This document shows positions 5,761 to 35,652 of a DNA stretch of 61,417 nt, one piece after another. Both the position numbers and the translations under genes were made by a program. The DNA lies in assembly GCF_000315445.1 (NCBI RefSeq), contig NZ_JH992961.1:51333-112749 (forward strand), in the 5' to 3' direction. How positions within the stretch are numbered: position 1 is the stretch's first letter; each line of letters opens with the position of its first letter. This DNA is from Alloiococcus otitis ATCC 51267. Its GTDB lineage: Bacteria > Bacillota > Bacilli > Lactobacillales > Carnobacteriaceae_A. The notes under the pieces were generated by a model. The model did not search any database. It saw nothing but the letters and a program-made list of their open reading frames with translations, and was not told the DNA's origin.

Positions 5761-6729
5761 TTAATTGGCGTATTCAGGAAGGGATTCGCCAATCGCCTCC
5801 AGCCGGTCTTGGACCTCTTCCTTGCTCAGGTTGTGCTCTTTCACATAGCGGTTTTCAGGGTGGATACGGCATTCATGACTGCAACCGCGGAGGTATTTGT
5901 GCTCGTTTTCTTCTGACATGAGGATTTGTTTGTTGCAGTAGGGGTTAGCACAGTTGACGTAACGCTCACAAGGAGTGCCGTCAAACCAGTCGCGACCGAT
6001 GACTGTTTTTTCTTTTTTGTTAATATCGACGCTGATTCGCTCGTCGAAGACATACATCTTGCCATCCCAGTATTCTCCCTGGGTTTCCTCATCGGTGGCA
6101 TAGTTGTGGATCCCACCATTGAGTTGGCCAACATCTTCGAAGCCTTCCTTGAGCATCCAACCACTTAATTTTTCACACCGGATGCCCCCTGTACAGTAGA
6201 CAACCACTCTTTTTTCCATGAATTTATCTTTATTTTCCCGGATCCAGTCGGGTAGTTCACGGAAGTTGCGGATGTCCGGTCTGACTGCTCCTCTAAAGTG
6301 GCCCAAGTCATACTCGTAATCGTTTCTGGCATCTAAAACGACTGTGTTCTCATCGAAGAGGGCATCCCGGAATTCACTTGGCTCCAAGTGCTTACCGGTA
6401 GTTTGATTGGGGTCGACATCCTCGTCACCTAGATGAAGGGAGACAATTTCTGGACGAGTTCGCACATGCATTTTTTTAAAAGCATGTTGGTCAGCTTCAT
6501 CAATCTTGAAAGGCATTTGGCTAAAGCGAGGGTCTTGGTGCATGCGGTTCATGTATTCGTCTGTGTCTTTTTTCTTACCAGAAAGGGTTCCATTTAAGCC
6601 TTCTTTTGAGACTAAAATCCGCCCTTTCAGGTTCAATTCATCACACATTTTTTTATGGTCTTTGCAAAATTGTTCAGGGTCATCGATGGTTACATATTGG
6701 TAGTATAGTAACACTCTGTAGTCTTTCAT
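5761..6729 (-). CDS. trhO: tRNA uridine(34) hydroxylase TrhO (rhodanese family)
   Basis: A 322-residue cytosolic protein of the YceA/TrhO family, which makes 5-hydroxyuridine at the wobble position of tRNAs in an oxygen-dependent reaction. The N-terminal ferredoxin-like domain ([27 protein letters not shown]) precedes a rhodanese domain with the active-site cysteine in [10 protein letters not shown] (about 178). A Cys-rich C-terminal segment ([23 protein letters not shown]) is typical of the Gram-positive members. A strong ribosome site (GGAGGAAGAAAG) supports the start. It appears monocistronic and has its own terminator. Confidence 0.92.
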
Positions 6730-6997
6730 CTTTCTTCCTCCATTATCTTATAGTGCAAATATAAGTTATGAACACACGAATTATAAACTAGTTGTTGGTA
6801 ATATTCAAATATCAACTTTTAAGTTAAAAGGCAAATCCTACATCAAAACAAAAGCCGTTGTCATAAAGCTAGAAATTATTTTATAGAATAGAAAAGAGAT
6901 TGTAATATAGCTGAAACATATTAATATTTTTTAATGCTATACTTTTAGGTGTATTCACTCTTTTGAAGAAGCCGGTGACGTATGGGAGGATTAAGCG

Positions 6998-8827
6998 ATG
7001 AAGAAGAAGTTTATCAGGACATCTATTACCAGTTCTTTAATTTTTGCCCAATTGCTAACAAGTCAGGTCGCTTTGGCAAGTGATTATGACAGTGAAATAG
7101 CCAATGCCCAAGAAGCCCAAAGTCAAGTGGAAGCCCTGGACAGTCGTTTGAGTCAAGTCACTTCCTCTAGTAAGTCAACTCAGGACCAATTAAGAGACCT
7201 AGAGGCTGCCATTGCTGATAACGAAGCTAAATTAGCCCAAGCTAGTGGGGAATTAGAGTCCAGTCAAGGTGACTACCAAGCTTTACTTGACGAGATTGAC
7301 ACACTGGAAGCAAACATTGAAAAAAGAGCAGACCGTCTCAAGGACCAGGCAAGAGCTGTTCAAACTAACGGTCAAATATCTCAATACATAGACTTTATTA
7401 TCCAATCTGAGTCCTTAACCGATGCCTTTGCCCGGTTAGACCTTGTCGTTAACTTGTTTAAGTCTAACCAGTCGATTATCAAAGACCAGGTGAAAGACAA
7501 GGAAGCTTTGGAAGCCATTAAAGAAGAAACAGGCCAAAGTATTTTGCACCAGGCAGACTTGGTTGATAGCCTAGAGGTTACCAGTCAAGACTTGGAACAA
7601 CAGCGCCTTGACCAAGAAGTTTTGTTGGCTCAATTAGCTGCTGAACAAGCCCAATTGGCATCTGAACGAGACCAGTTTATTGCCCAAAGAGACCAGGCCC
7701 AGGCCCAAGCTGACCGCCTCTTTGCCCAAAGTCAAGAGATTGCTCTAGCCCAAGAAGTAGCCCAGGACCAAATTGAAGTCAGTGAAGAAGCTAATGACGT
7801 TGATTTAGTTGAAGAAACCCGTCAAGCATTGGATCAAGCTGAAATCGTAGAAGAAGACGACCTTGACCCTCAAGAGGGGGAAGAGGAACAGACTCAACAA
7901 GAGCTTGACCCAGAAGTTGCAGAAGAAGTTATTGAAGAAGGTCAAGTCGAAGCGAGCCCTGGACAAGATTCAGAAGATGAAGCTGGGATAGAAGAGGCTA
8001 GCAATCAAGAGATTCCGGTTGAAGAAGAAGAAAGAGAAGATCAAGCAACCAGCCAGGACCAAGTCAGTTCAGAAAGTCAGGATCAAGTTAGTCAAGGCCA
8101 AACAAGTTCAGAAGGTCAAAACCAACCTGGCCAAGAACAAGCTCAAGGAGAGGAGACTAGCCAGGAGGAAACTAGTCAGCAAGCTAGCAATTCTCAAGCA
8201 AGACCTGCTAGTCAACCGGCTCCTAGCCAAGACCAGTCTTCCTCTACCAACCAAACTAACCAATCAGCAACTAATAATAATTCTAGCCAGTCTAACCAAA
8301 CTAACCGTAACAACCGCAGTCAAACGAGCCAAGCTTCTAGCAGTAATAATTCACGCCAAGATAGCCAAACTGCTAGAAACGACAATTCAAATCAAGTTAA
8401 CCAAAGACAAGCTAAAAAACCAGCCCAGCCACAAGCTAAACCACAAACTCAGTCGGTTGGCCAACCATCTCTATCCTGGTCAAGTATCCAGAGCACGGCC
8501 AATAGCTACCTAGGCACCCCTTACCGTTGGGGTGGATCTTCAAGATCTGGCCTTGACTGTTCTGGTTTTACTCAATTGGTCTACAGCCAACACGGTATTT
8601 CCCTTCCACGGAACTCCCGGGCCCAGTATGCAGCAACCAAACGTGTATCCAACCCTGCCCCTGGTGACTTAATCTTCTTTGGAAACGGAGGTCGGGTAAC
8701 CCACGTAGGAATTTATGCTGGTGGCGGCCAATTTATTGGTTCTCAAACTTCAACGGGTGTGGCCTATGCCAATGCCCACACTGGCTACTGGGGAGCACGT
8801 TTCATTGGTTACGGCCGGGTTAACTAA
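6998..8827 (+). CDS. Secreted NlpC/P60 peptidoglycan endopeptidase with coiled-coil N-terminus
   Basis: A 609-residue secreted wall hydrolase. A signal peptide (about 1-28, ending near VALAS) is followed by a coiled coil rich in Gln, Glu and Ala (about 30-260, PcsB/CwlO-like). A very long low-complexity linker rich in Gln, Ser, Glu, Asp and Asn (about 260-490) comes next, then a C-terminal NlpC/P60 domain. Cys of DCSGF (about 521) and His of THVGIY (about 569) form the catalytic pair; AHTGYW holds the likely third polar residue. Such enzymes cut stem-peptide bonds and are needed for daughter-cell separation. The ribosome site GGGAGGA is strong, and a TATACT -10 lies at 6938. The linker is about twice the length seen in most relatives. 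Confidence 0.9.
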   Translation: MKKKFIRTSITSSLIFAQLLTSQVALASDYDSEIANAQEAQSQVEALDSRLSQVTSSSKSTQDQLRDLEAAIADNEAKLAQASGELESSQGDYQALLDEIDTLEANIEKRADRLKDQARAVQTNGQISQYIDFIIQSESLTDAFARLDLVVNLFKSNQSIIKDQVKDKEALEAIKEETGQSILHQADLVDSLEVTSQDLEQQRLDQEVLLAQLAAEQAQLASERDQFIAQRDQAQAQADRLFAQSQEIALAQEVAQDQIEVSEEANDVDLVEETRQALDQAEIVEEDDLDPQEGEEEQTQQELDPEVAEEVIEEGQVEASPGQDSEDEAGIEEASNQEIPVEEEEREDQATSQDQVSSESQDQVSQGQTSSEGQNQPGQEQAQGEETSQEETSQQASNSQARPASQPAPSQDQSSSTNQTNQSATNNNSSQSNQTNRNNRSQTSQASSSNNSRQDSQTARNDNSNQVNQRQAKKPAQPQAKPQTQSVGQPSLSWSSIQSTANSYLGTPYRWGGSSRSGLDCSGFTQLVYSQHGISLPRNSRAQYAATKRVSNPAPGDLIFFGNGGRVTHVGIYAGGGQFIGSQTSTGVAYANAHTGYWGARFIGYGRVN

Positions 8828-8881
8828 ATCCAAAGCCGTACTTATCCTAACAATCTAATCTCCATGTTAAACCAAGCAGAA

Positions 8882-8919
8882 AAAAGCGACCCATCCATGT
8901 GATTGGATGGGTCGCTTTT
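8882..8919 (+). terminator. Terminator of the NlpC/P60 gene
   Basis: A perfect 16-bp stem (AAAAGCGACCCATCCA and its complement) with a 6-base loop and T-rich end. Confidence 0.9.
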
Positions 8920-9033
8920 GTGGTTCTACAACATTTGACCTAGGTGAAGGACTCACCAGGGACACTTTTTTAGCTTCTTAAACTCGACTCAATTGTCTAA
9001 GTTACATACGAAATTAAAGCAGAACATTTGTTA

Positions 9034-9183
9034 TTCTCAAACTTTGGCTCAAGTTTGAGAATTATTCCGGTTTTTCTCAAATAACTTAAGTTGTTTGAGA
9101 ATTTTTCGATGTTTTTCTCAAACAACATATGTTATACGAGAATTTCAATGTTTTTTTCTCAAATAACATATACTATACGAGAA
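9034..9183. repeat. Array of four 28-bp palindromes at 40-41 bp spacing
   Basis: Units at 9034-9061, 9074-9101, 9115-9142 and 9156-9183 each begin TTCTCAAA and end GAGAA. The first is an 11-bp perfect stem with a 6-base centre. The second pairs at 13 of 14 positions with no loop. Units 3 and 4 keep the left half (TTCTCAAAYAACAT), while the right half has drifted to ATACGAGAA. The spacers are 12-13 bases and T-rich. A degenerate fifth copy (AACAATTGTT core) may follow near 9193-9220. The array lies between convergent genes, outside both terminators. It could be a protein-binding array or structured RNA; neither is shown. Confidence 0.85.
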
Positions 9184-9267
9184 TCTGAGCGTTTTTTAAA
9201 AAACAATTGTTATTATTCACTTACCTCTCTCCAAGCTCTGGCAGCCCCATTTCCCACATAAGAAAAA

Positions 9268-9291
9268 CAGCTAGCGCGGTTAGGCTAGCTG
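9268..9291 (-). terminator. pepF terminator
   Basis: CAGCTAGC/GCTAGCTG stem with an 8-base loop. On the minus strand it is followed by a TTTTT run. Confidence 0.75.
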
Positions 9292-9346
9292 CTTAAAAGT
9301 AATTTTGGTCATTTAGGATACTCAGAAAATACAGTTCAGGACTGGC

Positions 9347-11152
9347 TTACAAGTATGCCTCTGTAAGGTTTAGGAATTCATCAATATCTTGCTTGACTAG
9401 GTCAATGGCTGATTGCCAGAAGTCTGGTTCTTCTAAGTCATAGCCTAAATGTTTTTGAACCAGGTCTTCACTGGTCATGCAGGCTGTATCTTTGAGCAAG
9501 TCAATATAACGGTCTTCAAATTGGTCGCCTGCTTCTTTGGCTTGGGCGTAAATTCCCATACTAAATAAGAAGCCAAAGGTATAAGGGAAGTTGTAAAAGG
9601 CTTGGTCTGTCATGTAAAAGTGGAGCTTGCTGGCCCAGAAGCTAGGGTGGTAGACCGATAAGGCGTCCCCAAAGGCCTGCTTTTGGGCTTCCACCATCAA
9701 TTCATTAGCCCGATCTGGAGAGACTAAGCCAGTCTTCCGTTCAGCATAGAAAGACTTCTCGAAAATAAAACGGGACTGGATGTTCATAAACATAACAGCT
9801 GCCCGGGAAATCTTGCTGTCTAAAAGGGAAATTTTTTCTTCTATAGAATTCGCATTTTGAATGGTAGCATCTGATACCACCATTTCAGCAAAAGTAGAAG
9901 CAGTTTCGGCGACATTCATAGCATATTCCTGGTTCAAGTAGGCTTGGTCCCGTAAAACATAGGAGTGGAAGGCATGTCCGAGCTCGTGGGCAAGGGTGGA
10001 GACATTGTCGGGACTGCCAGAGAAGGTCATAAAGATTCTAGACTCTTTGGACTCTGGAAGGTCCGAACAGTAACCACCTGGCCGTTTACTAGCCCGGTCT
10101 TCAGCTTCGATCCAAGCACCGTCGAAGGCTTTTTGGGCCAGGTCTTTCATTTGCGGGCTGACCTGGGCAAAGTCGTCCATAATAAATTCTGCTGCTTGGT
10201 CAAAGCTATAAGTTGCGGGTTTAAATTCTCCAACAGTTAAGGGGGCTTCTAAATCAGCCCAGCCTAACTGGTCTAGACCTTGCAGTTGGGCCTTGCGTTC
10301 CATGTATTTGATCACATGGTCTTTATTTTGATTGATGGTCTTCCACATGGTATCCAGGCTTTTTTGATTCAAGCGGTTATTTTCTAAGGCAGGTTTGAGG
10401 AAGTCCTCTTCCCCGTGCAAGGCTTGGTTAGCCAGGTTAAAGCCCACGATATGGTTGAGGGTGGTTGCAAAGAGGCTTGCCTTGTCTTGCCAAGCTTGCT
10501 CCCAGGCCTTTAAGATTTCTGACCTTTTGCTAGGGTCTTCCTGGCTGGTTAACTTGTTTTGGGCTTGGGCGGCTGAGTAATAATTGACCTTCCCCTCTTC
10601 TTCGATAGGTACTTTGACCTGGGCTACTAGGTCATTGTACATGGACTCCCATCCTTGGTAGCCATCTGGACTTAGTTGGCTAATAATTTTTTCCTGGTCA
10701 GGACTGAGTAACTTATTAGCATCACGGCGGATTTCATTTAAACGAAAGGCAAGGTCTTTGAAAGGGTCTTCTTCTAGCAAGTTTTGCCAATCGTCTTCAT
10801 TAATTTCTTGTATTTTTTTGCTTAAAAGGGTGAGGGTTTGACTAAAGTCATGTTCCAGCAGGCTAACCTGGTTTAGATTGTTTAGGGATACGGTGTCATT
10901 CACATCAGCTGACAAGTGAGCGTTGGCAAAGGTCCCTGACTGGTTCAGTCCCTTGGCAATCTTGGCCCGGTCTGCTAAAATATCAATAAATTGGTCCTGG
11001 TCGACCTGGTCATGGTCTGTTTGCCAAGCTTCAATTTTTTCCTTAAAGCTAGTGATCTGGTCTTTCACCAAGTCTAATTTTTCATGGAGGGCAGGGGAGT
11101 TTGGCCCGCCTTCAAATACCGATTCTAAGTTCCAAGTGTCTTGATAAACCAT
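9347..11152 (-). CDS. pepF: Oligoendopeptidase F (M3B)
   Basis: A 601-residue cytosolic zinc peptidase of the usual family length. It degrades peptides of roughly 7-17 residues after uptake or signal peptide release. The zinc motif HELGH is in TLAHELGHAFHS (about 388-392). The surrounding M3 family block (FSGSPDNVSTLAHELG) and the downstream Glu in NVAETASTFAE are present. A strong GAGGAGG ribosome site precedes the ATG. The gene is single, with a terminator at 9268-9291. Confidence 0.95.
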   Translation of the reverse strand: MVYQDTWNLESVFEGGPNSPALHEKLDLVKDQITSFKEKIEAWQTDHDQVDQDQFIDILADRAKIAKGLNQSGTFANAHLSADVNDTVSLNNLNQVSLLEHDFSQTLTLLSKKIQEINEDDWQNLLEEDPFKDLAFRLNEIRRDANKLLSPDQEKIISQLSPDGYQGWESMYNDLVAQVKVPIEEEGKVNYYSAAQAQNKLTSQEDPSKRSEILKAWEQAWQDKASLFATTLNHIVGFNLANQALHGEEDFLKPALENNRLNQKSLDTMWKTINQNKDHVIKYMERKAQLQGLDQLGWADLEAPLTVGEFKPATYSFDQAAEFIMDDFAQVSPQMKDLAQKAFDGAWIEAEDRASKRPGGYCSDLPESKESRIFMTFSGSPDNVSTLAHELGHAFHSYVLRDQAYLNQEYAMNVAETASTFAEMVVSDATIQNANSIEEKISLLDSKISRAAVMFMNIQSRFIFEKSFYAERKTGLVSPDRANELMVEAQKQAFGDALSVYHPSFWASKLHFYMTDQAFYNFPYTFGFLFSMGIYAQAKEAGDQFEDRYIDLLKDTACMTSEDLVQKHLGYDLEEPDFWQSAIDLVKQDIDEFLNLTEAYL

Positions 11153-26305: not shown

Positions 26306-26708
26306 ATGATTCATCTAAATAGCCTGTCCTATAACTAGCGAACTTTTCATAAAGAGGACGGTTTTGGTAACGATTAAAGATTTTTGGAAGAGGGAAGTCA
26401 AGAAAATTATAGCCATAAAAAACATTTCTTTACACGTAGAAGAAGGCGAAATTCTTAGCTTAATTGAACCAAACGGAGCAGGAAAGACCTCCCTCATCAA
26501 AGTGATGACGGGAATTTTGGAGCCAACCAGTGGCCCAATAACTTGGCTCCTGCCTATTTTAACTGCCATTAATTCGCCTGTTTTACTAGTCCAAGGAAAT
26601 GATTCTACCGCTTTTCTAATCTGGCTTGTCAATATAAATAGGCCTGCTAGCGGCTTGGTTGGCTACCTTTGGAAAAAAGGCTTGCAGCAGTATGCCTCAG
26701 CCAATTAA
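26306..26708 (+). pseudogene. Remnant of an ABC transporter operon: ATPase start fused to permease end
   Basis: ATG 26306, behind GGAGTAACC, begins MIHLNSLSYN and then hits a stop. After a frame change the ATPase N-terminus continues (KDFWKREVKKI, IKNISLHVEEGEILSLIEPNGAGKTSLIKVMTGILEPTSG). Walker A is altered to IEPNGAGKT. Directly after PTSG the frame runs into a sequence with the look of an ABC-2 permease C-terminus (SPVLLVQGND ... LWKKGLQQYASAN). The rest of the ATPase and most of the permease(s) are missing, so an internal deletion has fused the ends of a transporter operon. Non-functional. Confidence 0.7.
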
Positions 26709-27397: not shown

Positions 27398-27417
27398 TAG
27401 TAAAGAAGGTGCCAAAA

Positions 27418-28200
27418 TTGAAGTCGTCAGCCCAGAATCATTCAATCTTATTTTCAACCATCAAGCGTCTTTTATTACCCTTTGCCCTTGTTTCCGTCAT
27501 TTACCTTGTCTCCTTAGGGATTTCCATCCATATGGTGAACGGGGATACCGCATTCAACTATCTGATCGAGCCCTATATTTATGGATCAGGTCCAATTGAT
27601 TTTTTCTTCCCCCTAATTGTTTCTGCTGTCTTTAGTTGGAACCTATACTTTTTACGGAAAGATCATTTTTTAACCTATGTCCATCCCCGGACCGAAATAA
27701 AAAAATATATCGGTATTCAAATTTTAGCTGCTCTTTTATTGTCTTTCCTTATGGTAGCAGTAGTCAATTTCTTAGCAGTTGGGTTTTCGACTCTAATTGC
27801 AAATCCTGCCCCTTACAGCGTTAATCCCAATGGACTAGAGGGTTATTTATTCAGTAACCTGCAAATGAACCGTCCTCTATTATTTGCTTTCTTTTGGTAC
27901 ATTTACAAGGGTCTAATGGCTGGTTTGATTTGCTTACTAGGTCAAGTCTGGGGGCTGTATAGTCATAATTTATATTTAATCTTACTAGCCCCCTTTGTTA
28001 CAGTATTTTTAGAAAACCTCCTATTTTCCCTCTTAAATATACCAGAATACAGTTTCCCAACAGCTTATGTCTTGAACCGTTTGGAAACAAACGCCATGAC
28101 TGTTACCAACTTGCTACTAGCCATTTTCGTATTTTGCTTCATCATCTTCCTCACTGATTACCTTCTAAGGAGAAAACATGGGTCCGCGATTTCAATCTAA
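27418..28200 (+). CDS. Membrane protein, putative ABC permease
   Basis: A 260-residue polytopic protein with about six hydrophobic segments. The start is taken as TTG 27418 because AGAAGGTG lies 6 bases upstream; GTG 27409 would abut the ribosome site. The first gene of a three-gene unit (permease, permease, ATPase), overlapping the next by 23 bases. No family motif was recognised beyond the general layout of ABC-2 permeases (a soluble loop of about 35 residues between helices 3 and 4). Confidence 0.65.
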   Translation: MKSSAQNHSILFSTIKRLLLPFALVSVIYLVSLGISIHMVNGDTAFNYLIEPYIYGSGPIDFFFPLIVSAVFSWNLYFLRKDHFLTYVHPRTEIKKYIGIQILAALLLSFLMVAVVNFLAVGFSTLIANPAPYSVNPNGLEGYLFSNLQMNRPLLFAFFWYIYKGLMAGLICLLGQVWGLYSHNLYLILLAPFVTVFLENLLFSLLNIPEYSFPTAYVLNRLETNAMTVTNLLLAIFVFCFIIFLTDYLLRRKHGSAISI

Positions 28201-29707
28201 ATTGATAGAATTTTATCAAGTGAATAAGTACCTACTATTAGCTAACTTTCTTGTTTATTGTTTTTTCTTTGGCAATAACTTTTCTCAAGGAAAGGCTAAT
28301 GGTTTTCACAATATAGAATTCGCCTTGCTTACAATGACTGACCATTATTACTTATTAAATGCCGTTTTTCCGCTAATGCTCATTATGCTAACCCGTTATT
28401 TTAAACAAGAAAGAGAAGAAGAAGTCATCCGCTTTGTTTACCGCAGGGCCCAAGTCAGAAATGAAGTAAGTATATTTGCTTGCTGGTTAATCCTGTATTT
28501 TGGGACCCAGCTAATCTTGACCCTGGTCTTATCCACTATCTTTTTTCCTTTTTCCCCTAATTTTGAAGCGAGTCTTTCGGGCTTGAACCTTGACTTTGCC
28601 TTGTTTTTTGAAAGCATTATGTCCGTTTTTTCCAATCCAGTTTTTGCCTTACTAGCGAGCTTTGTCTATTTGATCTTCGGCTGGTTGGTCTTGGTTTCAA
28701 TATTATCACTAGTAAATAGCCATTTTGGCTACCGCAAATTAGTGATGGTGACGGTCGCTTTTCTAATTGTAACTTATCTAGGTTTCAATACGGAATTAGA
28801 TAATTCATTTCCCTTTCTATTCTTTAACCAGTACTTTATTTTACACCACGCCCTTCAAGCCTTTGCTCAGTCCATTGACACTTTTATCCCCCTTCCCTTG
28901 ATCGGCCTTGCCAGCCTGGTTTATGTCTTTCGGCCGATAAAAAGGCTTAAACAAGAGGAACAAACTGCAGAATCCCTCTTAAGGGAGCTCATTCTTCCAA
29001 AATCAGTGATGAAGTGGGCCTTTGTCCTCTTAGGTCTTTTGCTAGTTATTGATAGCCTTCAAGTCCTATACGGTATAGTCAATACTGGTCAGGCCTCTTT
29101 ACAAGACGTCATTGTCAGGTTAACGAATGGTAGTCATGCCAATATGCCGGATACCTTAGCTTGGATGCGCCTCCTCTTAATTATTATGGCACCCCTCTTT
29201 ATTATTGGGAGTCAAAGGACCCTGTTAGACCGCTATGGCGAAGCCCATTTCATTATCCGCTATTCGAGTAAGGCCTTATTAAAAGCCAAGACCATCCTAA
29301 CCTATTCTCGGTTTTTGTTAGCCTATGCCTTATATTTAGTTGTTGCGCTGTCGCTTCTTTTTATTGCTGGTTATGGGTCAGGCTCACCATCTGTATTCCA
29401 AGAACTATTGGCTTTCTACCAAGTGCCTGCTTCGCCCATCCAAGTCTTTATTCTCTTACTAGTCCTTTTACTTGCCCAATTATTTTTTGCCTTCCTCATT
29501 TACATCTTGCTATCTGACCTATTGAATGAAGTGGTAGCCCTATTGATCATGGTGGTGGTTTCAGCCCTCACAGCCTTTGTCAGTCCGATTAACATGATCC
29601 TAATAACTAGTGGTTTGTCATCTCTAGTCCAATTACTAGCAGTTCCCCCAAGATTTTTTTACCTCAACCTCGCTTTAATCTGCTTAGCTATAGGAATTTT
29701 TATTTAA
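28178..29707 (+). CDS. Large membrane protein, putative ABC permease
   Basis: A 509-residue protein with roughly a dozen hydrophobic segments. It looks like two ABC-2-type membrane halves fused, with a cytoplasmic stretch near residues 255-275 (KRLKQEEQTAES). The ATG follows AAGGAGAAAAC inside the end of the previous gene. An ATPase gene starts 22 bases after it. Function is inferred only from this operon. No catalytic motifs are seen. Confidence 0.65.
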   Translation: MGPRFQSKLIEFYQVNKYLLLANFLVYCFFFGNNFSQGKANGFHNIEFALLTMTDHYYLLNAVFPLMLIMLTRYFKQEREEEVIRFVYRRAQVRNEVSIFACWLILYFGTQLILTLVLSTIFFPFSPNFEASLSGLNLDFALFFESIMSVFSNPVFALLASFVYLIFGWLVLVSILSLVNSHFGYRKLVMVTVAFLIVTYLGFNTELDNSFPFLFFNQYFILHHALQAFAQSIDTFIPLPLIGLASLVYVFRPIKRLKQEEQTAESLLRELILPKSVMKWAFVLLGLLLVIDSLQVLYGIVNTGQASLQDVIVRLTNGSHANMPDTLAWMRLLLIIMAPLFIIGSQRTLLDRYGEAHFIIRYSSKALLKAKTILTYSRFLLAYALYLVVALSLLFIAGYGSGSPSVFQELLAFYQVPASPIQVFILLLVLLLAQLFFAFLIYILLSDLLNEVVALLIMVVVSALTAFVSPINMILITSGLSSLVQLLAVPPRFFYLNLALICLAIGIFI

Positions 29708-29729
29708 TACAGATAAGGAGCCTCATCAG

Positions 29730-30404
29730 ATGGAACAAATAAAACTAAGTCAAGTGAAAAAAAGTTATAAAAACAAAGTCTTGTACCAAAACGTCAATCT
29801 TTCAATCCATAGAGGGGACTCTATAGCCTTAGTTGGTTCGAATGGGTCTGGCAAGAGTGTCTTGTTTAAACTCATCACCGGTTTAGAAAAGCCTGATAGT
29901 GGGGAGGTTTGGGTTGACAACCAAGCGATTGGAAGGGATGTGGACTTTCCAGAAGGAGTTGGTATTCTGGTCAATCAACCTGGTTATGTGGAATATTACA
30001 GTGGATTTAAGAACCTTAAACTCTTAGCTGAAATAAAAAACCAGATAAATGACAAGCAAATCAAGGAGGCAATGAACCGGGTTGGCCTAGACCCAGACAA
30101 TGAGACCATGGTCAAGGAATATTCAACCGGAATGAAGCAAAAGCTAGGGATCTGCCAGGCTATTATGGAAGACCAAGACATTATCTTACTTGATGAACCC
30201 TTTAATGCCCTAGACTTTCAGACCAACAAGGATATTTTAAGACTATTGACTAACTTGAAGGCTGAAGGAAAGACTATCCTCTTAACTTCCCACCAACATT
30301 CCTTATTGGAACAAGTCTGTGACAAGTTTTATATCATCATGAACCAAGAAGTCACTGAGATGTCAGACCAACTGAAGAAAGACTATTTTACCCTGCTAGC
30401 TTAG
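29730..30404 (+). CDS. ABC transporter ATP-binding protein
   Basis: A 224-residue ATPase: Walker A GSNGSGKSV (about 36-44), Q-loop NQPGY, a degenerate signature YSTGMKQKLGICQ, Walker B IILLDEPFNALD and switch His in TSHQHS. The layout is that of the BcrA/NatA group of efflux ATPases. It ends the operon with the two membrane genes upstream, which it presumably drives. AAGGAGCC precedes the start. Confidence 0.87.
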   Translation: MEQIKLSQVKKSYKNKVLYQNVNLSIHRGDSIALVGSNGSGKSVLFKLITGLEKPDSGEVWVDNQAIGRDVDFPEGVGILVNQPGYVEYYSGFKNLKLLAEIKNQINDKQIKEAMNRVGLDPDNETMVKEYSTGMKQKLGICQAIMEDQDIILLDEPFNALDFQTNKDILRLLTNLKAEGKTILLTSHQHSLLEQVCDKFYIIMNQEVTEMSDQLKKDYFTLLA

Positions 30405-30491
30405 ACAAGCTTTCATCCCCCCTTAACTGAAGAAGATAGTCTCCCAGAAGGGAAAATCCTTGCTCAGCGGAGGGGGGGAAGGGAGATTCCT

Positions 30492-30608
30492 TTGGAAGAG
30501 TTAGTAGCATTGCAATCATTAAGTGAACGAAAAACCTATGCTAATTCAGCTAATTCTACCCCGTTAGATTCTTGTGTCATTGGAATCTGCAACGGAAATG
30601 ACTGGTAA
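30492..30608 (+). CDS. Putative class III lanthipeptide precursor peptide (38 residues)
   Basis: A 38-residue peptide from TTG 30492, with AAGGGAG 6 bases upstream. The N-terminal part MEELVALQSLSER carries the L-x-A-L-Q-x-L type motif that class III synthetases (LanKC) recognise in leaders. The C-terminal part holds SANSTPLDSC, a Ser-x-x-Ser-x5-Cys arrangement as used for labionin/lanthionine rings, and a second Cys in GICNGNDW. In the same AT-rich block lie a LanC-like cyclase (32752) and an ABC exporter (34063). TTG is the only conventional start in this frame, which is open back to 30405. The gene was found by reading frames by eye; homology was not tested. Confidence 0.6.
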   Translation: MEELVALQSLSERKTYANSANSTPLDSCVIGICNGNDW

Positions 30609-30771
30609 GAAAGTCCCAAGTGTTGAACCTGTCCTAAGTACTTTATCGTATTTATTAGAGGGGAGATAAAAATGAGGTTAATCATGATGTAAATTTATTT
30701 AATAGAATCGTATCTCTATAGTATAAAACGTATGCTATAAGTGAAGAATATTAAATAATGGGTGATTTAAA

Positions 30772-31695
30772 TTGACTAAAATTGAAATAAAAGATTTAAA
30801 TGTTAAATTTGATGAGGTACATGCGGTAAAGAACCTAAGCCTTACATTAAGTGGGGGAGATTTTGTCGCTTTGGTTGGGCACAACGGTGCAGGGAAATCA
30901 ACACTGATTAATACGCTTGTTGGTTTTCAAAAACCAACAAGCGGGAAAATATTGATTGAGACTGAAAGTATTGAAGATAAAGGGTTTTCAGTTATTGGTT
31001 TTTCTCCACAAACAACGATGTTAGACTGGTATAATAATGTCTTTGATAACGTTTATTTAGGGACACTATTAGGAAATTGTCCATCAGCTGAAGCTGATCA
31101 TATGATTGAACAGGCGCTTAAAATAATGAATATTTTTGATTTGAAAGATAGAAGTTTGGAGCAGCTCTCTGGCGGGCAACAACAACGAGTCCAAATCGCC
31201 AGAGCTCTTGTGCATCGTCCGGACATTTATATTTTGGATGAACCGACTGTAGGAATGGATCAAGAAACTGGTGATAATCTATTGTCATATTTGAAAGAGG
31301 AAGCCAATAAAGGGAAGATTGTGATTATATCATCTCACGATCTGTCTTTGCTAGAAGAACATTGTGATGATTTGCTCTTTATGGATCATGGCGATATATT
31401 ATACCATGGTAAAATGAGAGAATTCGCTCAGAGTAAAGACGAGCAAGAAGCTTATGAAGTCTTATTTGCTCAGACCTATATGCTAACAGATAAAGAGCTT
31501 CAGAAAGCAAAAGAACTAGATTTTAAAATCGAGAAGATTGACGATGATAAGGTTAAGCTAATGGTTCCGAAAGGTACACTGGTAAGGGAGGTCTTGCAGA
31601 TGTTTTGTAAGAATACTCCGATTAAAAGTGTCGAACCAGAGATGGTTTCTCTCAAAGAAGCATATATGTCTATGCGTGAAGGGAGAAGTTTATAA
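30772..31695 (+). CDS. ABC transporter ATP-binding protein
   Basis: A 307-residue ATPase: Walker A GHNGAGKST (about 36-44), Q-loop FSPQTT, canonical signature LSGGQQQRVQIARAL, Walker B IYILDEPTVGMD, switch His SSHDLS, then a C-terminal extension of about 90 residues as in DrrA-like proteins. The TTG start overlaps nothing. Its stop overlaps the permease start (TAATG). Codon and base usage differ from the LanC-like gene that follows. The pair separates the lanthipeptide precursor from the cyclase fragment, so it may be an insertion. Peptide or drug export, or immunity, is possible. Confidence 0.88.
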   Translation: MTKIEIKDLNVKFDEVHAVKNLSLTLSGGDFVALVGHNGAGKSTLINTLVGFQKPTSGKILIETESIEDKGFSVIGFSPQTTMLDWYNNVFDNVYLGTLLGNCPSAEADHMIEQALKIMNIFDLKDRSLEQLSGGQQQRVQIARALVHRPDIYILDEPTVGMDQETGDNLLSYLKEEANKGKIVIISSHDLSLLEEHCDDLLFMDHGDILYHGKMREFAQSKDEQEAYEVLFAQTYMLTDKELQKAKELDFKIEKIDDDKVKLMVPKGTLVREVLQMFCKNTPIKSVEPEMVSLKEAYMSMREGRSL

Positions 31696-32498
31696 TGGAA
31701 CCGACTGATTTTAGAAAGATAAACTTATTGGGACTAAAGGGCTACACTTCAATTGTCAAGAATGAAATAAAGGCATTTTTTGCTTATAAGGGAGCAGTAT
31801 TGCAACATTTACTTACACCAATACTTTATTTCTTTTTTATCGTCTTAGGAGTAAACTCAATGGCAAGTACTGTTCCATACAAAGGTTTGACACTCCCGTA
31901 CAGTCAATATGCAATGACGGGAATTTTAGCAATGATGATGTTGACGGATATGTCACATGCGATTTATCGAGTAACGATTGATAAGCAGTACGGCTTATTA
32001 GGAATGAAACTACTCAGTGGGATCCGGCCTGTGTATTATGTCGTTGGAATGAGTACCTACTCGCTGTTAAGTACATCTTTAAAATCAATTGTTTTGTTAG
32101 TGTTAGCTGCTATGTTAGGTCATGGATTCACGCTAATGCAATCATTAGGTATGTTTGCGCTCATCATGCTAATGTCACTGTTTTGGACTTCAATCGGTGT
32201 TATGATTACCGTTAAGATTAAAGATTATAGAACGAGGGATAATTTTGTGTCATTTGTCGTGATTCCTGTGAGCTTCGCAGCACCAACATTCTTTGCGATT
32301 GAGTTAGCGCCAAGATTTTTGCAGATTGCAGTGAAGTTTAATCCGCTAACCTATCAATTGCAATTCATGCGTGATTTAATCTTCTTAGAGGGTGATTTTA
32401 TTGGTATATTATGGTTGGTACTTTTATCATCTGCTTCAATAGCCTTAGCAAGTTACGTAATTAACCGAGCTCGGCTGACATTGGCGGAACATGGATAA
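31695..32498 (+). CDS. ABC-2 type transporter permease
   Basis: A 267-residue DrrB/TagG-like permease with six hydrophobic segments. The late motif NPLTYQLQFMRDLI resembles the ABC-2 signature (NPLTY...R). It starts on the last base of the ATPase stop codon, so the two are coupled and form one exporter. Substrate unknown. Confidence 0.87.
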   Translation: MEPTDFRKINLLGLKGYTSIVKNEIKAFFAYKGAVLQHLLTPILYFFFIVLGVNSMASTVPYKGLTLPYSQYAMTGILAMMMLTDMSHAIYRVTIDKQYGLLGMKLLSGIRPVYYVVGMSTYSLLSTSLKSIVLLVLAAMLGHGFTLMQSLGMFALIMLMSLFWTSIGVMITVKIKDYRTRDNFVSFVVIPVSFAAPTFFAIELAPRFLQIAVKFNPLTYQLQFMRDLIFLEGDFIGILWLVLLSSASIALASYVINRARLTLAEHG

Positions 32499-32751
32499 TT
32501 TTGATTTTTTTAGGCTTTTTGACAAATAGCCTGCTAGTTGTTAATTCCTTAGGTAATCCTATAGACTAATATTTGGGTGAAAAATGTTGGCAGATTGAAA
32601 AAATTCAACTGACTGTGCTAATTTTACAATGATCTTGTCAATGCTAAATTAGATTAAGCAGTTTTTACTATGTAGATGTAATAAGTAATATGATAAAGAT
32701 TTTTTTGAAAAAGAATATGCTTTTTTTAACAAATTTATTCCACCTCAGGCA

Positions 32752-34050
32752 TTGGATATTTATAACGCGGGTGTAAAGCTGAGAGATTCATTAGCGAATA
32801 AAACATTAAGTGAAACGGTGTTAGATGATATTGAACAATATTTATCAAACAATGAAGATAGTAATATTAATTTGCTTATAGATGAAGAAAAAGATAGTTT
32901 AATTGATACTGTTAAAGAAATTATCCAAAAAATGAGTTTATATTATTCTAATGTATTCGCTGATAATCCAGAAAATATACTTAAGTTTAATATTTCGGAT
33001 TACAATGATAATCCGATGTCACTTGTATATGGTTATCCTGGAATAGCGTTAACATTGAAATCACTAAACATAATTGATGAATTTCAATTAAGAAATATAT
33101 CAATATTTTTACAGAAATACTATAAAATAAACAAATCTAAGATTTTTTTGAATAACGGACTGATGTTCGGAAAAGCTGGTTTGGCACTCTTCCATACAAA
33201 AGCAGGGTCTTTTTTCAGCAACAATATTTTTCTATTTGAATTAATAGAAACTTTGAACAATTCAGAATATAGAGAAATTGATTTTGCGAATGGTTTGACT
33301 GGAATAACTTATGCGTTGAAATTAATTAGCGACGATAATACCTATCCAAATTTTTCAAAGATCATTGAGAGTTATTTTGATATTATATCTGCAGTGGATA
33401 AGCCGATAGGAAAATATCAAGGCTTGCAATACGGTAACATAGGTATTTCATTTGGAATACAATATTTTGATGACCTGAATACTAAATCGAATAGATTAGA
33501 TAGTTTTTTTAAGAATATTGATATAGACGTATCTTCAGTTAGTGATGACAAGATTTTTACTGGGTTATCTTATTCTTATGAAAATTGGCCACACATTAGA
33601 TCACCTTATTTATACTCGGGGGGTGCAAGCCTTCTTTACGTGTTAACTACTTATTTCCATAATTCTAAAAACTGTGATTGGCAATTATTAAGGACGTTAT
33701 TAAAAACTTTAGAAGTTCCTACTACTCATACTTATGGTATTGGATATGGTATGAGTGGTGTAGCTTTAATTATTATGATGATATTGATACTGCCTAACGT
33801 TCCACTAGATGTACGTCAGCGATTAGAATTATTACTTATGGATAAAATAGAATATATTATAATTCATTTTCATGATAATAAGGATTTTAAGGGTTTTTAT
33901 GATGAAAAACAAGATAAATTTATTGATGATTTTGGTAACGGGACCTTAGGAATATTGAAAATATTAAAAATGTTTCTAAAATATAATGATAAAGAATTAT
34001 GTTGGGATGAAGATGTATTTTCTCTAATACCGCTACCAAATATAATTTAA
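32752..34050 (+). CDS. LanC-like cyclase domain, probably a 5'-truncated class III lanthipeptide synthetase (LanKC)
   Basis: A 432-residue protein made of Gly-rich helical repeats typical of the LanC fold: YGYPGIAL, FGKAGLAL, NGLTGITY, YGNIGISF, YSGGASLL, YGMSGVAL, NGTLGILK. The zinc-binding Cys/Cys/His of true LanC are missing, and SPYLYSGGA resembles class III (LabKC-type) cyclase domains. There is no ATG or good ribosome site; TTG 32752 is nominal. The frame is open only back to a stop at 32686. In the next frame, across a T7 run (32700-32706), residues like SSFYYVDVISNMIKIF recall the end of a kinase domain, so lyase and kinase parts were probably lost. The exporter gene follows after 12 bases. 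Confidence 0.7.
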   Translation: MDIYNAGVKLRDSLANKTLSETVLDDIEQYLSNNEDSNINLLIDEEKDSLIDTVKEIIQKMSLYYSNVFADNPENILKFNISDYNDNPMSLVYGYPGIALTLKSLNIIDEFQLRNISIFLQKYYKINKSKIFLNNGLMFGKAGLALFHTKAGSFFSNNIFLFELIETLNNSEYREIDFANGLTGITYALKLISDDNTYPNFSKIIESYFDIISAVDKPIGKYQGLQYGNIGISFGIQYFDDLNTKSNRLDSFFKNIDIDVSSVSDDKIFTGLSYSYENWPHIRSPYLYSGGASLLYVLTTYFHNSKNCDWQLLRTLLKTLEVPTTHTYGIGYGMSGVALIIMMILILPNVPLDVRQRLELLLMDKIEYIIIHFHDNKDFKGFYDEKQDKFIDDFGNGTLGILKILKMFLKYNDKELCWDEDVFSLIPLPNII

Positions 34051-34062
34051 GAAGGTGATTTG

Positions 34063-35652
34063 ATGAAAAACATATTGAAGGATGTGCATAGCTTATACCA
34101 CAGTAAGAAGAGTTTAATTATATTTCTATTGCTATTTGGGGTTGTGATGGCTCTTGATTCAATCGTTACACCACATTATTTGGGGATATTTACAGACTAT
34201 ATGGCAAGCTTCCAATACACAGAGGTGCCAATCATTCTTCTGCAATGGGGATTGCTGCTAATAGTCATTAATTTAGGCTCGTTATTGTTCCAATACTTTG
34301 CAAGTAGAATAAGACAAGAAACGAATAAAGATCTTAAAGAAATGGTATTTCTTCAAGCGTATTTACCGGGTAACGAAATAGTCAATAATAATGAATATAT
34401 AACCTCTATTCTTCAAGATGTAAAGCAAATTGAGACTAGTTTTGTTAATTCATTTATAAGTTTCATTTACTGTATATTGCAAGGTTTATTAGCTTTGGCT
34501 TTTGTTTTGAATGTAAATCTGCAAGTGGGGCTTGTTTTTATTTTACTCGGTTTCATACCAACTATGATCCCTAAATTGACCGAAAAGTGGTTACAAACTA
34601 GTACAAATAATTGGCAAATACAAAATCGCTTGTATACACAAGTAATGGAAGATGGGTTGCGCGGTAAGCAGTTAATCAAAAGATTTAATGCTTCAAAATT
34701 AATGTATAGACGTGTTCAAAATAAGTTAATTGAAGAGCAAAAAGCTTATTTTTCAATGGATTTCTGTCAAAAAACGTCTTCTTTCTTAGTTGGTCTCTTA
34801 TATAATGTTACAGTCATTTTGTCACTAGCATATGGAGCATTTGTTGTTATAAATGGTAGTTTATCTATTGGTGAACTGATAACTGTCTATATGGCTGCTG
34901 ATAGGGTGGTTAGTCCACTTATTTCTTTAGCAAGTTTTTACAGTGCGATGGTGGCTTCACACCCATTGTTGGATAAAATACTCAATCCCAACCCAATTAG
35001 GAAGAGGATATCACCACCTTCTTTCACAGAACAGGATGCACTGATTGAATTGAATAATGTATCTATAGGATATGGTAATAAATTATTATCTTCCAACATT
35101 AATTTACAAATTAATCATGGAGATCGCGTATTAATTCAAGGTCCAAGTGGATCAGGTAAGTCAACGTTGATTAAAGCATTATTAAATGAAATTGAGGTCC
35201 TTAAAGGTCAAATATTATACAATGAAAGCTTGAGGGATGGTAATTTGTATAATCATTTTGCTTTAGTTGAACAGAAACCTTTTATCTTTCAAGATACGCT
35301 TAGGTTCAATTTAACCCTAGGACAAGCCATTGATGATGATTTGATACTTAAAGTGCTAAATGAAGTTGGCCTAGAAAAATTGGCTAGTCTTGAGGAGCTG
35401 GATAATGTTATATCGTTAGAAAACAATCAACTTTCTGGAGGAGAGACGAAACGGTTAGAGGTTGCTCGGTCGCTATTATATAATAAAAAAGTCCTTATCG
35501 TTGATGAAGCTTTGTCCGGATTAGATAATGATCGAGCTAAACAATTAAATGAATTGATTGTAAATTATCCAGGAACAATTATCAATATTGAGCACCATAT
35601 TGATGACACTATTCGGAGTAAGTATAATAAACGATACAGCATACAAAACTAA
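34063..35652 (+). CDS. ABC exporter (fused membrane and ATPase domains), probably for the lanthipeptide
   Basis: A 529-residue half-transporter: six transmembrane helices (about 15-300), then an ATPase with Walker A GPSGSGKST (about 358-366), signature LSGGETKR (about 456) and Walker B VLIVDEALSG (about 476). There is no peptidase C39 domain, so a leader would have to be removed elsewhere. ATG 34063 follows AAGGTGATT. It is AT-rich like the LanC-like gene just upstream and closely resembles the frameshifted exporter at 18285-19897. Homodimeric export of a modified peptide is the most likely role, from context. Confidence 0.85.
   Translation: MKNILKDVHSLYHSKKSLIIFLLLFGVVMALDSIVTPHYLGIFTDYMASFQYTEVPIILLQWGLLLIVINLGSLLFQYFASRIRQETNKDLKEMVFLQAYLPGNEIVNNNEYITSILQDVKQIETSFVNSFISFIYCILQGLLALAFVLNVNLQVGLVFILLGFIPTMIPKLTEKWLQTSTNNWQIQNRLYTQVMEDGLRGKQLIKRFNASKLMYRRVQNKLIEEQKAYFSMDFCQKTSSFLVGLLYNVTVILSLAYGAFVVINGSLSIGELITVYMAADRVVSPLISLASFYSAMVASHPLLDKILNPNPIRKRISPPSFTEQDALIELNNVSIGYGNKLLSSNINLQINHGDRVLIQGPSGSGKSTLIKALLNEIEVLKGQILYNESLRDGNLYNHFALVEQKPFIFQDTLRFNLTLGQAIDDDLILKVLNEVGLEKLASLEELDNVISLENNQLSGGETKRLEVARSLLYNKKVLIVDEALSGLDNDRAKQLNELIVNYPGTIINIEHHIDDTIRSKYNKRYSIQN

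Follow-up and report, generated by a model that had tools for sequence, protein, structure and literature searches.

Does a frame of 38 residues on the plus strand (30492-30608) of the window, by which we mean the whole stretch of 61,417 nucleotides from Alloiococcus otitis ATCC 51267 analysed here, encode the precursor of a class III lanthipeptide, and would this genome still be able to process it? The preliminary description had read the frame as a lanthipeptide precursor that belongs with a LanC-like gene and an exporter further downstream, and its account of the frame itself agrees with what we found: translation yields LEELVALQSLSERKTYANSANSTPLDSCVIGICNGNDW (38 residues, followed by a stop codon) from a TTG (30492-30494), a good ribosome site (Shine-Dalgarno AGGGAG, 30480-30485, plus strand, read from the sequence) lies six bases ahead of this codon, the N-terminal half carries LVALQSL (residues 4-10, with Leu4, Val5, Leu7, Gln8 and Leu10), and the C-terminal half carries Ser19-x2-Ser22-x5-Cys28 and a second cysteine (Cys33). 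On the basis of this translation and of a similarity to precursors adjacent to LanKC genes, we regard the frame as a likely class III lanthipeptide precursor, which would be translated from the TTG and in which we would guess the leader to span residues 1 to about 16, and the core residues of about 17-38.

The peptide frame and its surroundings

Upstream, the frame stays open to 30405 (a 67-residue open frame), where it immediately follows, in the same reading frame, the TAG that ends a preceding ABC ATPase gene; the peptide itself lies 87 bases after this gene on the same strand. Downstream, a nested in-frame TTG follows 18 bases after the one at 30492. The GC content of the peptide (37.6%) is nearer to that of the ABC genes on both of its sides (37.2% and 39.4%) than to that of the two genes discussed below, the LanKC part (27.7%) and the exporter (33.0%). 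Searches of 98 related genomes (best E 0.11) and of plasmids (best E 8) yielded no convincing homologue of the peptide, and the locus as such was carried by no other genome searched (99 related genomes; 398 genomes of the class).

A truncated class III synthetase

The LanC-like gene of the preliminary description does contain a cyclase domain; it is, however, the 3' part of a class III LanKC gene (kinase end plus cyclase domain; 32689-34050, plus strand), which begins 2.1 kb downstream of the peptide on the same strand, with two ABC genes intervening. Read from the preceding stop, this frame is open throughout its 453 residues and matches the NCBIfam model NF038151 over positions 452-832 of 833; by model score it falls to class III over class IV (NF038151 E 1.3e-13 as against NF038150 E 0.043), with 50.3 bits that are far below the curated cut-off of 575. 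Its alignment to an 899-aa LanKC (genome G155, locus L036) spans residues 438-883 of that protein, with 42% of the positions identical, and the idea of a normal stand-alone LanC was rejected, since the best score is that of the class III LanKC model and the alignment covers those LanKC residues. The gene lacks the lyase together with most of the kinase, and what the peptide has downstream is thus the C-terminal part of a LanKC and not a complete enzyme.

According to the accessible portion of the ThurKC study (PMC10604976), the kinase of that enzyme extends from Ser233 to Pro478 and its cyclase begins at Asn491; as residue 429 of the G155 LanKC aligns with chain position 429 of the solved structure 8sap, these limits suggest that the LanKC part begins inside the kinase C-lobe and not at a domain junction. 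The same portion of the study places the leader helix between lyase and kinase, so that the part missing here is the part that would bind the peptide. The structures 8sap, 8sao and 8sam, which from their entry titles and the accessible text of PMC10604976 we take to be ThurKC, are matched in their lyase-kinase half by the intact L036 LanKC (E 1.3e-34), whereas the LanKC part of the window keeps only the portion after about residue 438; structure searches with its cyclase part returned no solved LanKC chain. Furthermore, six in-frame start codons occur between 32689 and 33100, none of them with a visible Shine-Dalgarno sequence, and the ATG at 32690 lies in a different frame.

As regards the missing half, a pseudogenised kinase in the 190 bases immediately upstream (32499-32688) was rejected because 124 of 300 shuffles scored as well, and one in 30609-30771 because 235 of 300 did. 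When the genome (completeness 96.98%, eight contigs) was searched with NF038151, the sole hit besides the LanKC part was a match to the kinase alone, at model positions 239-429, which lies on contig 1 in a frame of 672 aa. A query with the N-terminal 437 residues of LanKC found nothing in the genome at E up to 10, an empty result that had no positive control and shows nothing when taken alone. The LanKC part is the only LANC_like match in the genome, and the peptide lies on its strand and on its upstream side. Among 99 related genomes the gene was found in its own genome only, among 398 genomes of the class one relative besides (in G155) was found, and neither a plasmid search with the cyclase nor a scan of viral contigs found a relative.

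Intact clusters related to the locus

The LanKC part is followed, on the same strand, by an ABC exporter with fused membrane and ATPase parts (34063-35652, 529 aa, recognised by family matches and by its similarity to the L036 exporter), which begins 3.5 kb downstream of the peptide and is 49% identical over 523 aa to the exporter placed after the intact LanKC of L036. In that cluster (genome G155) a 43-residue frame (5972-6103), the LanKC (6211-8910) and the ABC exporter (8956-10533) stand on one strand, and the same precursor-LanKC-exporter order is found in Metasolibacillus sp. (L068), Sporosarcina luteola (L069) and Bacillus ndiopicus (L070), a first scan of contigs having found no relatives and a second one at least these three. 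The LanKC of L068 equals that of L036 at 891 of 899 residues, and those of L069 and L070 are identical to those of L041 and L040. NCBI taxonomy places Metasolibacillus sp. and Sporosarcina luteola in the Caryophanaceae and Bacillus ndiopicus in the Bacillaceae; the taxonomy of the genome collection groups G155, G512 and G627 in one family. In Bacillus ndiopicus (L070:2911-3582) we observed four tandem, nearly identical class III-type precursor genes ahead of one LanKC.

The proposed association of the peptide with the LanC-like gene and the exporter is thereby upheld in its outline (a shared strand, distances of 2.1 kb and 3.5 kb, and closest intact relatives arranged as precursor, LanKC and exporter), and peptides moderately similar to ours, of the kind that the preliminary description expected next to LanKC genes, do stand beside intact LanKC genes in at least three named genomes. 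Judging by Shine-Dalgarno spacing, the real starts of these precursors are probably the ATG at codon 4 of their frames, and their sequences follow the pattern M-[KN]-L-R-x-[QL]-L-E-R-L-E-V-S ... A-A-[NY]-S-x2-S-N-S-C-T-x-G-x-C. In an alignment with four of them the peptide is 31% identical to the first (Metasolibacillus sp.), and the columns invariant in all five sequences include two leader leucines, Ala-Ala-x-Ser and Ser-Cys-x2-Gly-x-Cys. The peptide thus shares with the precursors of L068/L036, L069 and L070 Leu7 and Leu10, the ANSxxS...SCxxGxC core (Ala-Tyr-Ser in one copy), the Cys-x4-Cys spacing and the neighbourhood of a related LanKC and exporter; it differs from them in Gln8, in a longer Ser-to-Cys spacing and in its TTG (as compared to a probable ATG), and whereas they are situated directly upstream of an intact LanKC of ~900 aa, in the window two ABC genes intervene and the LanKC is truncated. 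We consider this link, drawn from sequence comparison, as suggestive, not proven.

A frame-broken relative of the window exporter is also present on a Lactobacillus crispatus plasmid (L108:555-2016); being a fragmented copy with no LanKC in the record, it was rejected as a relative cluster.

Likeness of the peptide to class III precursors

The leader of the peptide is in register with LxLQ-type precursors at Met1, Leu4, Val5, Leu7, Gln8 and Leu10 (strictly it is VxLQ, with Val in the place of Leu(-18) of ThurA1), and its core carries Ser-x2-Ser-x2-5-Cys, the range of 2-5 being that of class III cores, in the form Ser19-x2-Ser22-x5-Cys28. Sx2Sx3C is given as a class III core pattern in the accessible part of PMC7268733. 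In ThurA1, processing suffers when Ala replaces Met(-22), Val(-19), Leu(-18) or Leu(-16), less so when it replaces Gln(-15), and not when it replaces Leu(-13) (accessible portion of PMC10604976); read from the TTG, the peptide would carry Met, Leu, Val, Leu, Gln and Leu at the corresponding positions. The precursors of LxLQ type (NF038154, lanthi_III_a, which matches those in L103 and L104; ThurA1 of Bacillus thuringiensis) thus resemble the peptide in Met1, hydrophobic residues at 4 and 5, Leu7, Gln8 and Leu10, but have a different core, and the peptide has no match to NF038154. By description only, the locus can also be likened to the III 6 class III family (Walker et al. 2020; Bacillus and Staphylococcus), for whose Firmicutes clusters the accessible part of PMC7268733 reports an ABC transporter and no conserved protease.

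To combine both halves, start-ORFs of 25-70 aa were scanned for a joint pattern (L/M at position 7, Q/E at 8, L/I at 10, then SxxSx2-5C). It was matched by one of the 1,282 such ORFs of the window, and in 60 dinucleotide shuffles by a mean of 0.033 per window, never with a Shine-Dalgarno sequence. In the other loci (487,735 bases, which overlap in part and are not all distinct, and from which the window copies L001, L002, L003 and L074 were omitted) the pattern occurred in 24 of 8,867 ORFs, all 24 beside LanKC-type genes and amounting to 12 distinct peptides, the rest being duplicates in overlapping loci. As the pattern was composed after seeing the relatives and the window peptide, the scan is not a blind test and its hits arise partly by construction; its informative part is that nothing but LanKC-linked peptides matched elsewhere.

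The window has 1,732 stop-to-stop frames of 20 aa or more; a profile of five precursors from intact clusters places the peptide frame first among them (7.8 bits, E 0.25), and BLOSUM62 local alignment puts it at the top as well (41 as against 39 for the runner-up). When the 1,282 ORFs were scored from their start codons with this narrow profile, the nested TTG came out best (9.3 bits) and the TTG at 30492 second (8.8 bits), a score that was matched in 17 of 200 shuffled windows. On a broad profile of ten precursors the peptide reached 3.0 bits, below other ORFs of the window, and all 200 shuffled windows were as good. Shuffles of the peptide's own composition (5000 each) reached its local score against the intact-cluster precursors in 30 cases. 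For the leader (residues 1-11), compared with six precursors of LxLQ type that come from further LanKC clusters in the same family (the second cluster of G512, G535 and G549), 16 shuffles did as well; the leader against the intact-cluster precursors and the local score against the LxLQ set were ordinary (552 and 610 shuffles as good, respectively). The peptide therefore resembles one class III branch in its leader and another in its core.

A match to lanthipeptide precursor models, which the preliminary description had put forward as a check, did not materialise: the precursor models of NCBIfam and Pfam gave none at E up to 1, and the sole NCBIfam row was an unrelated microcompartment protein (E 0.1). 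The L036 precursor, although it belongs to an intact cluster, likewise goes unmatched in NCBIfam and Pfam (at 0.1), so the silence of these curated models on the peptide is weak evidence. Nor was the peptide among the hits when the genome was searched with the precursor alignment. Weighing these comparisons, we are fairly, if by no means firmly, confident that the peptide is a genuine class III-type precursor.

The intervening ABC pair and cyclase-less clusters

Between the peptide and the LanKC part, two open frames on the plus strand encode an ABC transporter ATPase (30772-31695, 307 aa) and an ABC-2 type permease (31695-32498, 267 aa), which are 44% and 43% identical, respectively, to their counterparts in the lyase-kinase cluster of L037. 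There, the pair adjoins a 457-aa lyase-kinase without cyclase, a 96-aa peptide and a peptidase that we take to be of type S9 (its relative in L071 is annotated as such). Six loci with the ABC pair, or part of it, were examined: four contain a lyase-kinase (L037; L071, an Enterococcus faecium plasmid; L072, a Streptococcus salivarius plasmid; and L099) and five a related precursor (these four and L100), while L101 shows neither and starts at a contig end inside the ABC pair. In Pfam, the L072 lyase-kinase is matched by RamC_N and Pkinase; on the LanKC model its match covers positions 15-434.

These cyclase-less, RiPP-like clusters (L037:6864-12378; L071:6326-11219; L072:5618-9295; L099:1651-6815; L100:4136-6902) are made up of a lyase-kinase of 435-457 aa, a helper of ~100 aa, an S9 peptidase (in three loci), a drrAB-like ABC pair and a precursor of 77-96 aa with a related leader, whose core is SGAHSxxC in four of them and SSPWMHSQRC in L037. 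In L100 a 185-aa protein of unknown kind stands between the SGAHSxxC-type precursor and the ABC pair, and the 14 kb fetched contain no lyase-kinase. Membership of the peptide or the window in this cluster type was rejected, as none of the window matches to its parts (five precursors, four lyase-kinases, a helper and an S9 peptidase) was better than E 0.47, while a permease of the same cluster type, used as control query, found the window permease at E 2e-61. Judged by similarity, the window ABC pair probably came from, or shares ancestry with, a different kinase-type RiPP cluster.

In the literature searched we found no description of the window locus or of the cyclase-less clusters, which does not show that none exists, and nothing on Sporosarcina with a class III lanthipeptide. 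Because they have no LanC domain and would be missed by genome mining that starts from LanC, the cyclase-less clusters, with mostly SGAHSxxC cores and found in lactic acid bacteria and their relatives, may matter more than the peptide itself.

Alternative explanations

On the assumption that the peptide is not a gene at all, its features would be coincidental and the frame would be intergenic read-on from the frame of the upstream ATPase. On the narrow profile, an equally good peptide turned up in 17 of 200 shuffled windows; this result, the failure of the broad profile, the missing model match, the TTG start and the want of a convincing homologue in 98 related genomes (E 0.11) or plasmids (E 8) would all suit such an account; nevertheless, a chance frame would hardly be expected to rank first of 1,732 by two scoring methods, to have a Shine-Dalgarno sequence at good spacing, to lie on the right strand and side of the genome's only LANC_like match, and to show a leader and core pattern that in 487,735 bases of other loci matched only LanKC-linked peptides. 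We thus hold a chance origin to be unlikely, while giving it real weight. A good deal less probable, in our view, is that the peptide is a real small gene of another peptide system, for example of the three-gene ABC operon upstream (27409-30404). Its last gene encodes the ATPase already mentioned (29730-30404, plus strand, 224 aa), whose best NCBIfam match is TIGR03740 (lantibiotic-protection ABC; 148.6 bits, as against a cut-off of 309.75), and which is followed by the peptide after 87 bases on the same strand and with a similar GC content (39.4% and 37.6%). Yet the leader and core of the peptide resemble those of class III precursors, and the 509-aa membrane protein of the operon (28178-29707) matches no Pfam or NCBIfam family, has one distant relative among 397 other genomes of the class and none in plasmids, and within 27 genomes of the family was found in its own only, so that no link of the operon to any RiPP is shown.

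We see very little likelihood in a split class III system, in which the chromosome would supply the precursor, a cyclase fragment functional alone and the exporter, and a lyase-kinase half would act in trans from another replicon (e.g. from mobile cyclase-less clusters). The idea draws on ThurKC, of which the halves Met1-Gln486 and Thr487-Ile872, when mixed, modified a truncated precursor (accessible portion of PMC10604976), on the stand-alone lyase-kinases in clusters with relatives of the window ABC pair and on a cyclase frame open over 453 codons. It is at odds with a genome (completeness 96.98%) and window in which no lyase-kinase was found, with a fragment that appears to begin inside the kinase C-lobe and not at a domain junction, and with the want of a start codon with a visible Shine-Dalgarno sequence before 33100.

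A probable orphaned precursor of a decayed cluster

The explanation that we favour, with moderate confidence, is that the peptide belonged, as precursor, to a biosynthetic cluster for a class III lanthipeptide, and that this cluster has since decayed. In an intact cluster the LanKC kinase would phosphorylate Ser19, Ser22 and perhaps Ser27 of the core, the lyase would eliminate the phosphate to leave dehydroalanines, the cyclase would link these with the two cysteines (Cys28, Cys33) to form lanthionine or labionin, and secretion of the modified product would fall to the ABC exporter, the order of modification and the type of ring being what we would expect of such a system. In this genome nothing was found to replace the lost part of LanKC, which would bind the leader and make dehydroalanines; on the simplest account the peptide is therefore most likely an orphan relic, and, as far as gene content tells, it is probably not functional here. 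The proposal of a lanthipeptide precursor is supported as far as the resemblance of leader and core goes, and not as regards a working system, the LanKC lyase and most of the kinase being absent.

We consider that the locus illustrates possible cluster decay, in which a synthetase has lost its leader-binding half while precursor, cyclase frame and exporter persist. Moreover, as class III precursors are short and often unannotated, spotting a probable one by eye, through the register of its leader, serves as a useful proof of principle.

A probable composite island

The island is flanked by what, from their translations, we take to be a MutS2-like gene and a prepilin (comG-like) cluster, and its GC content is lowest in the LanKC part (27.7%) and highest in the upstream ABC genes (39.4%), as compared to 43.0% for the window. 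Since an ABC pair of another cluster type stands here together with class III pieces, the island combines pieces of at least two RiPP cluster types, and the locus is probably a composite RiPP island. Furthermore, a short frame at 26364-26708 opens like an ABC ATPase (with a Walker A-like stretch, recognised by eye) and then departs from it; it is probably a truncated transporter gene, and as such another sign of island decay.
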